DNA from: Candidatus Cloacimonadota bacterium
GTDB lineage: Bacteria > Cloacimonadota > Cloacimonadia > Cloacimonadales > JAFGVF01
Length of the DNA: 38,091 nt
Reading direction: 5' to 3'
NCBI GenBank assembly: GCA_016838885.1
Contig: JAEKNW010000279.1
Span: 1 to 38,091, forward strand
A program made the translations under genes and the position numbers. The stretch's first letter is position 1; each line of letters opens with the position of its first letter. Below the pieces are notes generated by a model that made no database searches, was not told the DNA's origin, and was given only the letters and a program-made list of their open reading frames with translations. Below, one piece after another: positions 3,832 to 38,091 of the stretch.

Positions 3832-5333
3832 GCACTATATTGATCTGTGATATCTTCCCGACTCTTACCCTTAAAAACTCTGAAATCATGGCGATGAAGT
3901 TTTTCATTGCTAACAAATTCCACTTTAAACTTATAATTGGAATAGATATAATCTGGATGATCTAAGATAAATACTCTAATATCAGGATTAACTTCAACTC
4001 TTATCTGTTCTTCTTTAATAAAATAAGCTGCTCGGTTTAACCAACGGCTAATATTTACTAAAACAGCATCAGAAGAGAGAATTCTCCCAGTTCCAAAACA
4101 ATAAGGACAGGATTCAGAGTAAGCTGATATAATTGAGGGTCTGATTCTTTTACGGGTAATTTGCACTAAACCTAGAGGACCAAAAGGGTAGGCTTTATTT
4201 CTAGCCCGGTCTTTCTTTAATTCTCTTTTAAGAACGTCTAAGACCTCTTCCCTACTCTTTTCTTCTCCCATATCAATGAAGTCTATGATAATGATCCCTG
4301 AGAGGTCACGAAGCCTAATTTGACGAGCTACTTCTTTGGCGGCTTCTTTATTGGTTTTAGTGATAGTATCTTCATACTTTGATTTTCCGGTAAAGCTTCC
4401 TGTATTAACATCGATAGCAACTAGTGCTTCAGTTTGGTCTATTTGGATATTACCACCGCTAGGCAGATATGATTTTGAGTTGAAAATTGTCTTAATTTTT
4501 TTCTCTATGCCGAAAGCATCAAAGATAGGAGTATCTTCATTATAGAACTCAATTCTACTTAAGAGATCAGGAGCTATATCAGCTATTTCACTTTTAATTT
4601 CCTTAAGAAAATCAACATCATCGATAACAACTCTGCTAACTTCATCTCTGAATAAATCTCTAATCAGGGTATTTTGTATTTTGTTTTCATCGAAAATACA
4701 AACAGGAGGTTTAGCATATTTAATCTGTTTTTCAATAACTTTCCAACTCTTGGTCAGAGCCTTGTATTCTGCTGTTAACTCTTCGTCTGTGCATCCTTCT
4801 GCTTCTGTTCTGACTATTAATCCATGATCCTTATCTTTCAAATTATAAAGAAAAGTTTTTAATCTCTTTTTTTCTTTAAATGATTGGATTTTACGGGAAA
4901 CAGATATTTTCGTTTTGTTTGGAAAGAAAACAAGAAATTTACCTGGGATTGAGATTTGACCTGTCAATCTAGCACCTTTCTTATTAAGTGGTCCTTTTTG
5001 AACTTGGACGATTATTTCTTGTCCAGAGTGAAGATATTTCCCTATCTTAGAAGAGTCGTTAGATTTATTGGTAACTTTACCATCTCCTTCAACTTCATCT
5101 AAATAGTCGACTATAATATCAGTATAGTGTAAGAAGGCTGTGCGTTCCAGACCAAGATCTATGAAAGCTGCCCCCATTCCGGGTAAAACATCCTTAACAA
5201 TTCCTTTATAGATATTACTAACTATATTGGAGTTGTTAGGTTTTTCGACGATAAACTCCAAGAGCTTACCGTTCTCTAATACTGCTATCCTTTTTTCTAA
5301 AGGTGTAACATTTACTACTATTTCAAAATTCAT
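3828..5333 (-). CDS. rng: Ribonuclease G/E family endoribonuclease
   Basis: This 501-residue RNase E/G-type enzyme cuts single-stranded RNA at AU-rich sites in rRNA maturation and mRNA decay. The N-terminal S1-like RNA-binding domain spans roughly residues 35-130. The catalytic DNase I-like part has both metal-binding aspartates in context, LVAIDVNTG and IIIIDFIDMGEE. The Zn-link motif CPYCFGTG follows near residue 420. There is no long C-terminal scaffold, so the size fits RNase G rather than full RNase E. It is 28 bases downstream of sppA and immediately before rplU-rpmA, next to which rng/rne genes are often found. The start ATG encodes MNFEIVVNVTPLEKRIAVLE, a standard family beginning. 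Confidence 0.93.
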   Translation of the reverse strand: MNFEIVVNVTPLEKRIAVLENGKLLEFIVEKPNNSNIVSNIYKGIVKDVLPGMGAAFIDLGLERTAFLHYTDIIVDYLDEVEGDGKVTNKSNDSSKIGKYLHSGQEIIVQVQKGPLNKKGARLTGQISIPGKFLVFFPNKTKISVSRKIQSFKEKKRLKTFLYNLKDKDHGLIVRTEAEGCTDEELTAEYKALTKSWKVIEKQIKYAKPPVCIFDENKIQNTLIRDLFRDEVSRVVIDDVDFLKEIKSEIADIAPDLLSRIEFYNEDTPIFDAFGIEKKIKTIFNSKSYLPSGGNIQIDQTEALVAIDVNTGSFTGKSKYEDTITKTNKEAAKEVARQIRLRDLSGIIIIDFIDMGEEKSREEVLDVLKRELKKDRARNKAYPFGPLGLVQITRKRIRPSIISAYSESCPYCFGTGRILSSDAVLVNISRWLNRAAYFIKEEQIRVEVNPDIRVFILDHPDYIYSNYKFKVEFVSNEKLHRHDFRVFKGKSREDITDQYSA

Positions 5334-16168: not shown

Positions 16169-17413
16169 TTAGAATCTTCGCTGTTGCATACTATTTGAGA
16201 AAGCACTTGAACTACCTGCAGTGTTTGTTAAATAACTAACTCCAATTATAACTTCGCTTCCTTCTTCGAGACCAGAAACTACTTCAATAAATGTACCATC
16301 AGATTCGCCAACCTTTATATCGATTTGCTTTGGTAGTCCATTTTCTAATATCCATATTTTTGCATCTCTCTGACTCGATTGCTTTTCTCCGGTCATCCCT
16401 TCTTTTTTTCTACCCTGTCCTCTCCTAGTCTCAGCTGTTGGGGTTACGACTGGAGCACTTTCGATCTTTTTTGAATCTATTCCCATAGATTCCCAGATCT
16501 CTTGAGTTGGTCTAAACTGCATTGCTCGTTCTTGAATTGCTAAAACATTAGGTTTTTCCGAAATGATAATTTCTAGATTTGCAGTCATTCCAGGGAGAAG
16601 AATATTACCGGGATTTTGGATTGATATGATAACAGGATAGGTTATCACGTTTTGGTCTGAAGAGGGATTCAATCTAACTTGCTTAATTGTCCCTTTAAAC
16701 CTTTTTTGGGTGAAGGCATCTACGGTAAATCTCACAGGGAGCCCTTCTTTTACTTTGCCAATATCAGCTTCATCAATATTTGCTTCAATTTGCATTTCAT
16801 CCAATTTATTAGCAATCATAAAGAGAGTTGGTGCATTAAGACTGGCTGCCACTGTCTGCCCCTCATCAACATTCCTTGATGTAACAATACCATCAATGGG
16901 GGAGTAAATAAAGGCATTGGTGAGATTCTTCTGAGCCTTTTGTACTGAGAATTCAGCTTTTGCCAGACTTTGAACTGAGAGATTATAAGTATATTTTGCT
17001 TGCTTGAGTTCGTATTCAGATATCATGTTCTGATCAAAAAGTTCTTGTTTTTTATCTACATCATCAGAATTGTTTTCTAAAGTTAGCCTACTCCGATTTA
17101 GTTCAATTTTTGCTTCTTCCAAGGCCATTTCTAAGGTTTCAGTATCTAATTTTGCCAATAAGTCACCTTTTTTAACTGAATCATTGAAATCTTTATATAG
17201 TTTTTCGATTTTCCCTGAGACTTCAGTACCAATTTCGACCTTAGTAATAGGATTAATTGTACCAATGGAGGTTATAGTTTGGGTTATAGTCGTTGTCCCA
17301 GTTTTAAAAACTCTCCATTCCATGGCATTTGTCTTATTTTTAAATTTCCAGTATCCTGCACCTATTAAGCCAATAATTATTATTATAAGGGCGAATTTAG
17401 CTATTTTTCTCAT
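16169..17413 (-). CDS. MacA-like periplasmic adaptor (HlyD/RND membrane fusion family)
   Basis: This 414-residue adaptor would link the inner-membrane ABC pump to an outer-membrane channel. It has an N-terminal membrane anchor (residues 6-22, with little ahead of it). A barrel/lipoyl half follows, ITKVEIGTEVSGKIEKLYKDFNDSVKKGDLLAKLD near 55-90. Next come an alpha-helical hairpin (about 95-165) and the second lipoyl half, YSPIDGIVTSRNVDEGQTV. A beta-barrel and membrane-proximal domain complete it. An unusual Lys/Arg/Glu-rich insert (ETRRGQGRKKEGMTGEKQ) interrupts the C-terminal domain near residues 325-345. The start has GAGGA upstream. It is the first gene of the adaptor-ATPase-permease operon, and the palindromic element at 17443 lies about 30 bases upstream of it. 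Confidence 0.9.
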   Translation of the reverse strand: MRKIAKFALIIIIIGLIGAGYWKFKNKTNAMEWRVFKTGTTTITQTITSIGTINPITKVEIGTEVSGKIEKLYKDFNDSVKKGDLLAKLDTETLEMALEEAKIELNRSRLTLENNSDDVDKKQELFDQNMISEYELKQAKYTYNLSVQSLAKAEFSVQKAQKNLTNAFIYSPIDGIVTSRNVDEGQTVAASLNAPTLFMIANKLDEMQIEANIDEADIGKVKEGLPVRFTVDAFTQKRFKGTIKQVRLNPSSDQNVITYPVIISIQNPGNILLPGMTANLEIIISEKPNVLAIQERAMQFRPTQEIWESMGIDSKKIESAPVVTPTAETRRGQGRKKEGMTGEKQSSQRDAKIWILENGLPKQIDIKVGESDGTFIEVVSGLEEGSEVIIGVSYLTNTAGSSSAFSNSMQQRRF

Positions 17414-17442
17414 AATGATTCCTCATTTTTTAATTTATTTTT

Positions 17443-17607
17443 AACCCGAATTGTGCAGTAGAACTTTAGAGAAGAGTGCAGATTCTTTTAGCAAAATAAC
17501 TTACAGAATTCGGACGCATATAATATATATATTCGGAAGAATTATGGGAGTTACTTTTGCAAAAGAATATATTGCTATTCTCAAAGATCTACTGCATTAT
17601 TTTGGTT
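17443..17607. repeat. Long palindromic repeat element, full-length copy
   Basis: The 165-bp sequence begins AACCCGAATTGTGCAGTAGA and ends with the imperfect inverse (…TCTACTGCATTATTTTGGTT). Inner segments also mirror each other: GATTCTTTTAGCAAAATAAC near 17481 against GTTACTTTTGCAAAAGAATA near 17550, and ACAGAATTC against GAATTATGG. The whole element can fold into one long hairpin around an AT-rich centre (TATAATATATATAT). The left half recurs at 37996, and a core-deleted form occurs at 18678. It lies between macA and yitT. The 220-bp gap holds nothing else. Confidence 0.8.
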
Positions 17608-17658
17608 TAATTACAATCCTACTTAGAACAAGACTTTGTTCTATCTTTTTTAAACTTA

Positions 17659-18654
17659 TCACTTCTTTCTTTTAGCAGAATCCAGTTCAGCTTGAATTTG
17701 TTGAATGCTTTTATTGTCTTGGAAATTTAGTTGTCTACTCTTAAAGCCAAAACCCATGACATCATATACATCATTTAGGATTACAAAAGAATTTGGGTCA
17801 ATGCTTTTTACTAAATCAGTAAGAGGTCCAACCTGTCGTCTATTGCAGACACAGAGCAGGACATTCAAGTCTCGACCGCTCCAGCCTGATTGTGCTTTAA
17901 ACATTGTTACGCCACGATTCAATCTTTTATAGATTTCATTTTTAATTTCAATAGCTTCTGTAGAGATAATATATACTCCTTTAATATAAGGAAGTCCTTC
18001 GCTGGCAATATCAGTGATTTTTGTAGAAATAAACAAGTTAATATAAGCCCAAATAAGAAGTTTGATATCTTGGAAGGTGATAGCGACAAAAAGAATAATT
18101 AAAGTTTCAATCACCCAATAAGCTGAGCCGACTGAGATTCCGGTCTTTTGTTTTACTAAGGCAACAGGGATATCAGTTCCTCCAGTTGAACCTCTAAATC
18201 TGAAGATAATACCTAAACCTAGTCCTAACATTACTGACCCGGCTATGGCTGAAAGATACATCTCATCTGGGGCCAACATTGCCAAAACCTCTTTTCCTTT
18301 AAAAATATGGGTGTATGGCTCTAATGATCTGATAATTCCCATCTTATGAAGAGTACTAAAACTGACAGCATCTATCATCAAAGCTGAGGTAATCATCCCA
18401 AAAATTGATCTTGCTCCAAAGGTTCTGCCTATCAATAAAAAACTAATAATGAAAAGTGGAATATTCATTAACAAGCTTATAACTCCGACAGGTAAATCAA
18501 AATAGTGATTAAGAACTTGGGCAATACCTCCCACCCCACCCGGGGACATTTGATAGGGCACTAAAAACCAAGAATAGCCTATTCCAAAAAAAATACTACC
18601 TACAATTATTCCTAAGATTTTCTTGTAATCTAAGGATTCAAAAGCGTTTTTCAT
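17659..18654 (-). CDS. YitT/DUF2179 family membrane protein
   Basis: The 331-residue protein has the YitT layout. Five or six hydrophobic helices fill the first 220 residues, e.g. ILGIIVGSIFFGIGYSWFLV, then GGVGGIAQVLNHYFDLPVGVISLLMNIPLFI and GSTGGTDIPVALVKQKTG. A soluble DUF2179 domain follows (from about residue 225, with LNRGVTMFKAQSGWSGRDLNVLLCV). The family is widespread but its function is not settled. Transport or cyclic-nucleotide-like ligand sensing by the C-terminal domain are guesses. No clear partner is adjacent. Copies of the palindromic repeat lie 52 bases after its stop and 24 bases before its start. A TTGACA at 18757-18762 has no good -10 box. The start is ATG (MKNAFESLDYKK). 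Confidence 0.88.
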   Translation of the reverse strand: MKNAFESLDYKKILGIIVGSIFFGIGYSWFLVPYQMSPGGVGGIAQVLNHYFDLPVGVISLLMNIPLFIISFLLIGRTFGARSIFGMITSALMIDAVSFSTLHKMGIIRSLEPYTHIFKGKEVLAMLAPDEMYLSAIAGSVMLGLGLGIIFRFRGSTGGTDIPVALVKQKTGISVGSAYWVIETLIILFVAITFQDIKLLIWAYINLFISTKITDIASEGLPYIKGVYIISTEAIEIKNEIYKRLNRGVTMFKAQSGWSGRDLNVLLCVCNRRQVGPLTDLVKSIDPNSFVILNDVYDVMGFGFKSRQLNFQDNKSIQQIQAELDSAKRKK

Positions 18655-18677
18655 TCTTCCTCTTTTTTTTCTTTTAT

Positions 18678-18725
18678 CCCAAATAATGCAGTAGAGCTTT
18701 GCAAAGATCTACTGCATTATTTGGG
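18678..18725. repeat. Short (core-deleted) copy of the palindromic repeat
   Basis: Two 24-base arms (18678-18701 and 18702-18725) form a nearly perfect hairpin with a single G/A mismatch. Their sequence, AAATAATGCAGTAGAGCTTTG against its inverse, equals the terminal ends of the 165-bp element at 17443 with the inner part missing. No U tract follows on either strand, so I do not call it a terminator, although it follows trmL. Confidence 0.75.
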
Positions 18726-18788
18726 GTTATCTGCAAAGATTCCTAAAGAAGATTTATGTCAATAGAAATCGGGATTATCCTATTAAGT

Positions 18789-32232: not shown

Positions 32233-32383
32233 CAGAAAAAGAGGTTCCGCAATACCGTGTCCAAGATTGAATCCGAGAACTATGTTCAAGGTGGGCATCT
32301 ACCTTTTTAGCTTTGCTGATCCGTAACAACGACGGCTTGAGCGCTACCAATGGCTCGATTCCCTCAAAATTGGCAGTTCTTCT
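32233..32383 (-). ncRNA. ssrS: Probable 6S RNA between zapA and rny
   Basis: The 243-bp gap has a structured minus-strand transcript of about 150 bases with bounds approximate. The ends GAAGAAGA and UCUUUUUC pair over 8 bases. GAAUC plus GAG pairs with CUC plus GAUUC. CACCUUGAAC followed by AUA and GUUC mirrors the CACCUUGAACCAAGGGUUC of the Escherichia coli 6S RNA 3' bubble. A CCGU...ACGG hairpin lies inside. TATATT at 32386-32391 is a plausible -10. The position next to zapA matches the E. coli zapA-ssrS arrangement. 6S RNA binds sigma-70 RNA polymerase to reduce transcription in stationary phase. A structure search would settle it. Confidence 0.6.
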
Positions 32384-32416
32384 TCAATATAAGATCACGA
32401 ATATTGCAGAACTAAA

Positions 32417-37118: not shown

Positions 37119-37748
37119 TTATTCATTATCTTCAATTTCTACGATAGCATCATCATCATCATCATCTGTCTTTTCTAATAAATCAATGAGCTTCTCAATA
37201 TCTTTTTTGGGTGATAGAGTCATAGACATGATTCTGCTTTCAGAACGAATCGGCTGATCTATATCAACTATCGGTTTCAACTCTTGCATTAATTTAAGCA
37301 ATAACTCTTCACCTATCTCTTTATGAGCCATTTGACGGCCCTTAAATCTCACAGTAAATTTTACTTTATCATGTTGAAGCAAGAACTTAATTGCATTCTT
37401 TTTCTTGAACTTATAATCATGTTCTTCAGTATTAGGCCCAAATTTGACCTCTTTAACCTGAACTTCTTGTCTGTTCTTTCTTGCTTCACGCGCTTTGCGC
37501 TCTTTTTGATAATAGTATTTACTAAAATCCATAATCTTGCAAACTGGTGGCTTAGCTGATGGAGATATCTCCACTAAATCCATACCGGACTGCTCAGCAA
37601 TCTCTCTAGCTCTAACAATACTTACTACGCCAACTTGCTTGCCTTCAGCATCAATTAATCTTACTTCTCGAGCAGATATTTGCTCATTTACACTTTCTTT
37701 TGGCACTACTTCTTTAGTCTTGGCGCTTCCTCTTCTTATTCTTATTAT
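37119..37748 (-). CDS. infC: Translation initiation factor IF-3, probable AUA start
   Basis: IF-3 keeps ribosomal subunits apart and checks start-codon selection. The N-domain has VNEQISAREVRLIDAEGKQVG and DLVEISPSAKPPVCKIMDF. The C-domain has VKEVKFGPNTEEHDYKFK, KVKFTVRFKGRQMAH and RIMSMTLSPKK, then an acidic tail DDDDDD...DNE not usual for IF-3. The GTG at 37706 has no Shine-Dalgarno site. A strong GGAGG at 37755-37759 lies 6 and 9 bases before two in-frame AUA codons at 37748 and 37745, with the added residues RIRRGSAKTKEVVP leading in smoothly. Rare start codons (AUU in E. coli) are known for infC autoregulation. The start is therefore inferred to be AUA. Confidence 0.9.
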   Translation of the reverse strand: MIRIRRGSAKTKEVVPKESVNEQISAREVRLIDAEGKQVGVVSIVRAREIAEQSGMDLVEISPSAKPPVCKIMDFSKYYYQKERKAREARKNRQEVQVKEVKFGPNTEEHDYKFKKKNAIKFLLQHDKVKFTVRFKGRQMAHKEIGEELLLKLMQELKPIVDIDQPIRSESRIMSMTLSPKKDIEKLIDLLEKTDDDDDDAIVEIEDNE

Positions 37749-37995: not shown

Positions 37996-38091
37996 AACCC
38001 GAATGATGCAGTAGAACTTTGATGAAGAGTGCTAGATTCTTTTAGCAAAATAAGTTACAGAATTTGAAGGCATATAATATATATATTCCTG
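37996..38091. repeat. Palindromic repeat element, left part (cut by the window end)
   Basis: The sequence begins AACCCGAATGATGCAGTAGA and aligns with the left half of the 165-bp element at 17443, with about ten differences over roughly 93 bases including one single-base gap. The shared part reaches the AT-rich centre (GCATATAATATATATATTC). The right half is outside the window. It lies upstream of the infC promoter. Confidence 0.8.

Follow-up and report, generated by a model that had tools for sequence, protein, structure and literature searches.

The window, i.e. the whole 38,091-nucleotide stretch that was analysed, is an entire contig (C279) of a Cloacimonadota bacterium, one of the 350 in its 3.34-Mb, 99% complete genome (G000, here the host genome). 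It holds three copies of a palindromic MITE, all situated between plausible genes, as had been claimed for the two copies known beforehand. A YitT/DUF2179 membrane-protein gene (17659-18654, - strand) is flanked by a full-length 161-bp copy and by a minimal 48-bp copy 1.1 kb away from it, while the third copy lies upstream of infC (37119-37706, - strand) at the contig end. The sole listed open reading frame touching a copy (17070-17444, + strand) is a frame antisense to an HlyD-like gene. The features are:

17440-17444, no strand: left copy of the target-site duplication, TTTAA
17445-17605, + strand: full-length 161-bp MITE copy, palindromic, CCC...GGG, with 88-95% identity to ~40 other scored genome copies
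17445-17462, + strand: left terminal inverted repeat (TIR), CCCGAATTGTGCAGTAGA
17588-17605, - strand: right TIR, CCAAAATAATGCAGTAGA as read on the - strand
17606-17610, no strand: right copy of the target-site duplication, TTTAA
18678-18725, + strand: minimal copy of 48 bp in which the two terminal repeats nearly abut, flanked by TTTAT / GTTAT (4/5 matching)
37998-38091, + strand: third copy, left TIR and left arm only, of a subfamily with AAGTTACAG; the contig end cuts the copy

The imperfect palindrome that the preliminary description had drawn from 17443 to 17607 is real, with borders slightly too wide because two bases of the flanking TTTAA were counted in at each end; the element proper comprises the 161 bp from 17445 to 17605 and has the perfect 5-bp direct duplication, TTTAA, on both flanks. 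Its predicted RNA fold is far better than that of shuffled sequence on either strand (+ strand, -60.0 kcal/mol vs -26.9 +/- 3.4, z -9.6; - strand, z -8.8), and the region of the 48-bp copy (18673-18740) gives z -8.0. The reported recurrence of the left half at 37996 is likewise genuine (37998-38091, 93% identity across a 55-nt inner block), and it is a half copy since the window coincides with a complete contig, whose end falls inside the element. Both copies first described therefore stand, but the third one at 18678-18725 and the many copies elsewhere in the genome had been missed. An Rfam search of the window found no curated family at the palindrome, its sole match being a 6S RNA gene elsewhere (32240-32415, - strand; RF00013, 54.7 bits). 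Plasmid and phage records gave no match to the element, and the number of viral contigs bearing a 20-mer of its interior was 0.

Genome-wide, the element belongs to a large family. A 19-base end pattern, ACCCRAATRRTGCAGTAGA, with up to two mismatches allowed, is found 314 + 309 = 623 times in the host genome and the reversed-pattern control 0 times, from which about 300 copies are estimated; these are ~90% identical to one another and have 18-bp terminal inverted repeats of consensus CCCRAATRRTGCAGTAGA at both element ends, so that a search for further copies in the genome yields hundreds with conserved termini. Sizes were taken from a sample of 61 stretches (1.07 Mb), whose contigs were largely chosen for known copies and whose density was not used on its own. 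The 91 paired elements in it, which are without a transposase gene, span 32-221 bp, with classes at 159-162 bp (n=31) and 80 bp (n=10). Short copies look like internal deletions, and in longer ones further hairpin modules have taken the place of an internal segment, namely TAATACTTCGCTAAAGCTACGTATCACAGGCGAAG, CCCCTTCTTTGAGGGGGACACAGGGG and, in nested form, the GGGATTGCGGGCTTCCAGCCCG hairpin. The GGGATTGCGGGCTTCCAGCCCG hairpin, which is nested inside one MITE copy (L150:208-420) and also lies near another TIR (L159, ~4978-5107), may be an independent repeat family. Apparent 1-kb elements on two contigs (C23 and C122), where ends lie ~1 kb apart, proved in each case to consist of two independent short MITEs and the ordinary sequence that separates them. 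In the first sample at least 7 of 17 contigs start in or directly beside a copy, and the family therefore probably accounts for part of the fragmentation of the assembly.

Target-site duplications accompany many of the copies. Three samples of copies, which overlap, gave exact 5-bp direct duplications in 31/56, 40/79 and 40/89; in the 1.07-Mb sample (n=89) the 40 exact 5-bp cases compare with 12 of 4 bp and 0 of 6 bp, and 68/89 copies have a 5-bp duplication with at most one mismatch, an exact one being missing in about half. Permutation of right flanks among copies (10,000 trials) gave a mean of 18.1 and a maximum of 31 against the observed 40/79. The duplicated sequences (TTTAA, TTAAA, ATAAA, TTTAT and similar) are of TTWAA type and do not simply extend the inverted repeat, because they are repeated in direct orientation (TTTAA..TTTAA, ATAAA..ATAAA). 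When each element and one flank are removed, 9/84 insertion sites fall inside an open reading frame of at least 100 amino acids, vs 81% of all TTWAA sites; i.e. genes are avoided, and the single insertions have the look of neutral passengers that lie for the most part in intergenic DNA. At the YitT locus 0/7 relatives have a copy, and gene order there is not conserved in the relatives. The putative transposition of the family is read from the duplications only.

The CCC ends and the 5-bp AT-rich duplication led to a search for the driver in the IS1380 family, whose members duplicate 4-5 bp (PMC12116815), e.g. IS1247 with 1672 bp, 16/13-bp ends and a 5-bp duplication (PMC3281130). The family was thus predicted from ends and duplication length first and then found in the same bacterial order, in which 107 genomes were scanned with PF13701. 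One of them (G043) carries an intact IS1380-type element of 1618 bp, with the duplication GTAAA and with ends that match the 18-bp MITE consensus at 17/18 positions on each side. Its 469-aa transposase passes the PF13701 cut-off (4.6e-24) and has the IS1380 model NF033539 as its best family (4.7e-48; 163.8 bits, short of the curated threshold of 180). The public contig JAQUBO010000231.1 contains another full-length element, with 85% identity to the first. This 5-kb contig (L146) is binned as Bacteroidales, and misbinning or recent transfer is possible. Relics with one TIR occur in three further genomes (G021, G024 and G044), with the TIR 107-108 bp upstream of the transposase start, the spacing also seen in G043; here the TIR search and the transposase search, which are independent, converge on the same loci. 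Internally deleted relics, in which transposase fragments are joined to a TIR, occur in G031 (C30, L112) and G054 (C5, L138) and are possible first steps of MITE formation.

The autonomous partner that was sought thus exists in a relative, as an IS of IS1380 type whose ends are the same. None was found in the host assembly with PF13701, NF033539 or the P0001 protein as query, and a second genome with homologous elements (G094) has no PF13701 match. We infer from the shared ends that a transposase of this type moved the host copies in trans. The favoured reading, to which we assign a probability of about 0.87, is that of a non-autonomous MITE with 18-bp TIRs that serve as recognition sites for an IS1380-family DDE transposase acting in trans. 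Such a transposase would act on the TIRs, cut at the CCC/GGG ends and join the element into 5-bp AT-rich targets, and it would have been lost from the host genome or left unassembled. The interior, a nested palindrome that MITE and IS do not share, is not IS-derived; it has probably shrunk by deletion and been altered by hairpin-module exchange, giving subfamilies of ~32 to 220 bp. The preliminary suggestion of a MITE-like mobile palindrome is thereby upheld by hundreds of copies, conserved TIRs, 5-bp duplications and a same-ended autonomous IS in a relative: in Cloacimonadota it forms a new MITE family whose ends are of IS1380 type, and MITEs are a well-known class of mobile DNA.

In addition to being a MITE, the element might have a function that its full hairpin exerts in single-stranded form, as RNA or as ssDNA in transposition, and the hairpin might be kept by selection; this reading is unlikely. 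The homologous 163-bp element of G094, from another family of the order, has the duplications TTAAA or TTTAA, and it and the host element both fold over their whole length; in the two genomes together 97% of cells are paired. Between them 15/62 pairs are changed on both sides, i.e. by compensatory change across genera, and the covariation score is 0.250 vs 0.139 +/- 0.009 for shuffled and at most 0.093 for slid controls; because related copies are not independent, these changes count as about 15 positions and not as 53 events. When identity alone sets the register, the fixed positions that depart from Watson-Crick pairing favour one strand (G.T 5 vs A.C 0 in the host; 7-8 vs 1-2 in G094). Against selection of the hairpin, double changes within the host genome are limited to 5 pairs and to few inherited events, a count that 205/500 shuffles reach, and pairing could also be restored by arm-to-arm template switching. 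Rare, recent single-copy changes are moreover symmetric (G.T 16, A.C 14), and orientation to co-directional neighbour genes shows no preference (11:15), so that an individual insertion shows no sign of being selected as RNA; the transcribed hairpin RNA of the preliminary description is not borne out, although the hairpin is conserved. These small numbers agree with a picture in which source copies are constrained and inserted ones decay neutrally. A tentative proposal, which we consider rather unlikely, is that the whole-length hairpin, and not its ends alone, is under selection in transposing lineages in single-stranded form, be it RNA or an ssDNA intermediate. There it would help the IS1380-type MITE to spread, and compensatory change across genera would keep the palindrome while inserted copies decay neutrally.

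That the element was moved by another DDE family, one whose ends are similar, is improbable. IS1634, ISH3 and other IS4-group elements are known to leave 4-6 bp duplications too, and the lack of an IS1380 gene in the host assembly speaks for such a source; the host, however, also has no PF01609 (DDE_Tnp_1) match, and among 39 PF13701 or PF01609 loci in the order both ends are found only around the G043 IS (two overlapping loci). Still less credible is an element of REP/REPIN type that owes its spread to a RAYT (Y1, TnpA-REP) transposase. The element is palindromic, intergenic and present in hundreds of copies, and the host genome has one Y1_Tnp gene, but the 18-bp TIRs and 5-bp direct target duplications are unexpected of Y1 single-strand transposition; Y1 transposases do not leave 5-bp duplications. 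The sole Y1 gene (L198; G000:C151:58379-58726, - strand) is RAYT-like and has a different, REP-like palindrome on both sides (CCCAGGGTAAAATTCCTGAAAGGAATTGCAACCCTGGG and TCCCTGAAAGGGA), with no good TIR of the MITE there; gene and palindrome are a separate REP/RAYT system, and the RAYT link raised in the preliminary description falls away. Ordinary bidirectional terminators or chance palindromes, to which the strong intergenic hairpins might point, are ruled out as the origin by hundreds of ~90% identical copies with target duplications and by a stem far too long for a terminator, although some copies may act secondarily as terminators where they lie.

The IS1380-type MITE shares features with several known systems. 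IS1380-family elements such as IS1247 and ISEcp1/ISEc9 have CC-type ends, a 5-bp duplication, ~1.6 kb and one DDE transposase, as does the G043 partner, whereas the element in the window lacks a transposase and has the 18-bp ends alone in common with the IS. Type II MITEs of Anabaena sp. 90 and MITEPye1 of Paracoccus yeei (tied to IS1182) are likewise short, TIR-bounded, intergenic and noncoding with a long stem-loop, but their ends and partner family differ, the comparison being one of features and not of sequence homology. RPE, YAPL/RU-2, NEMIS/Correia and RUP are also dispersed stem-loop elements of ~100-170 bp; they belong to other phyla and many have TA ends or TA targets, unlike the CCC ends and TTWAA 5-bp targets seen here. 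REP/REPIN sequences with RAYT are similarly palindromic, extragenic and present in many copies, and differ from the window MITE in its 5-bp target duplications, DDE-type ends and lack of a linked RAYT. The CCC-type ends and TTAA-like AT-rich target of eukaryotic piggyBac, for which IS1380 serves as outgroup (PMC10813416), resemble those of the MITE by analogy only, since piggyBac duplicates the 4 bp TTAA and the MITE 5 bp.

Among the literature available for searching, no paper on Cloacimonadota MITEs was found, nor one on an IS1380-driven MITE. The elements described here are a large MITE family in uncultured Cloacimonadota, together with its probable driver family. The lasting puzzle of the family is its conserved full-length palindrome, and with this conserved mosaic hairpin the old question of whole-length palindromy in many bacterial MITEs becomes testable by comparison.
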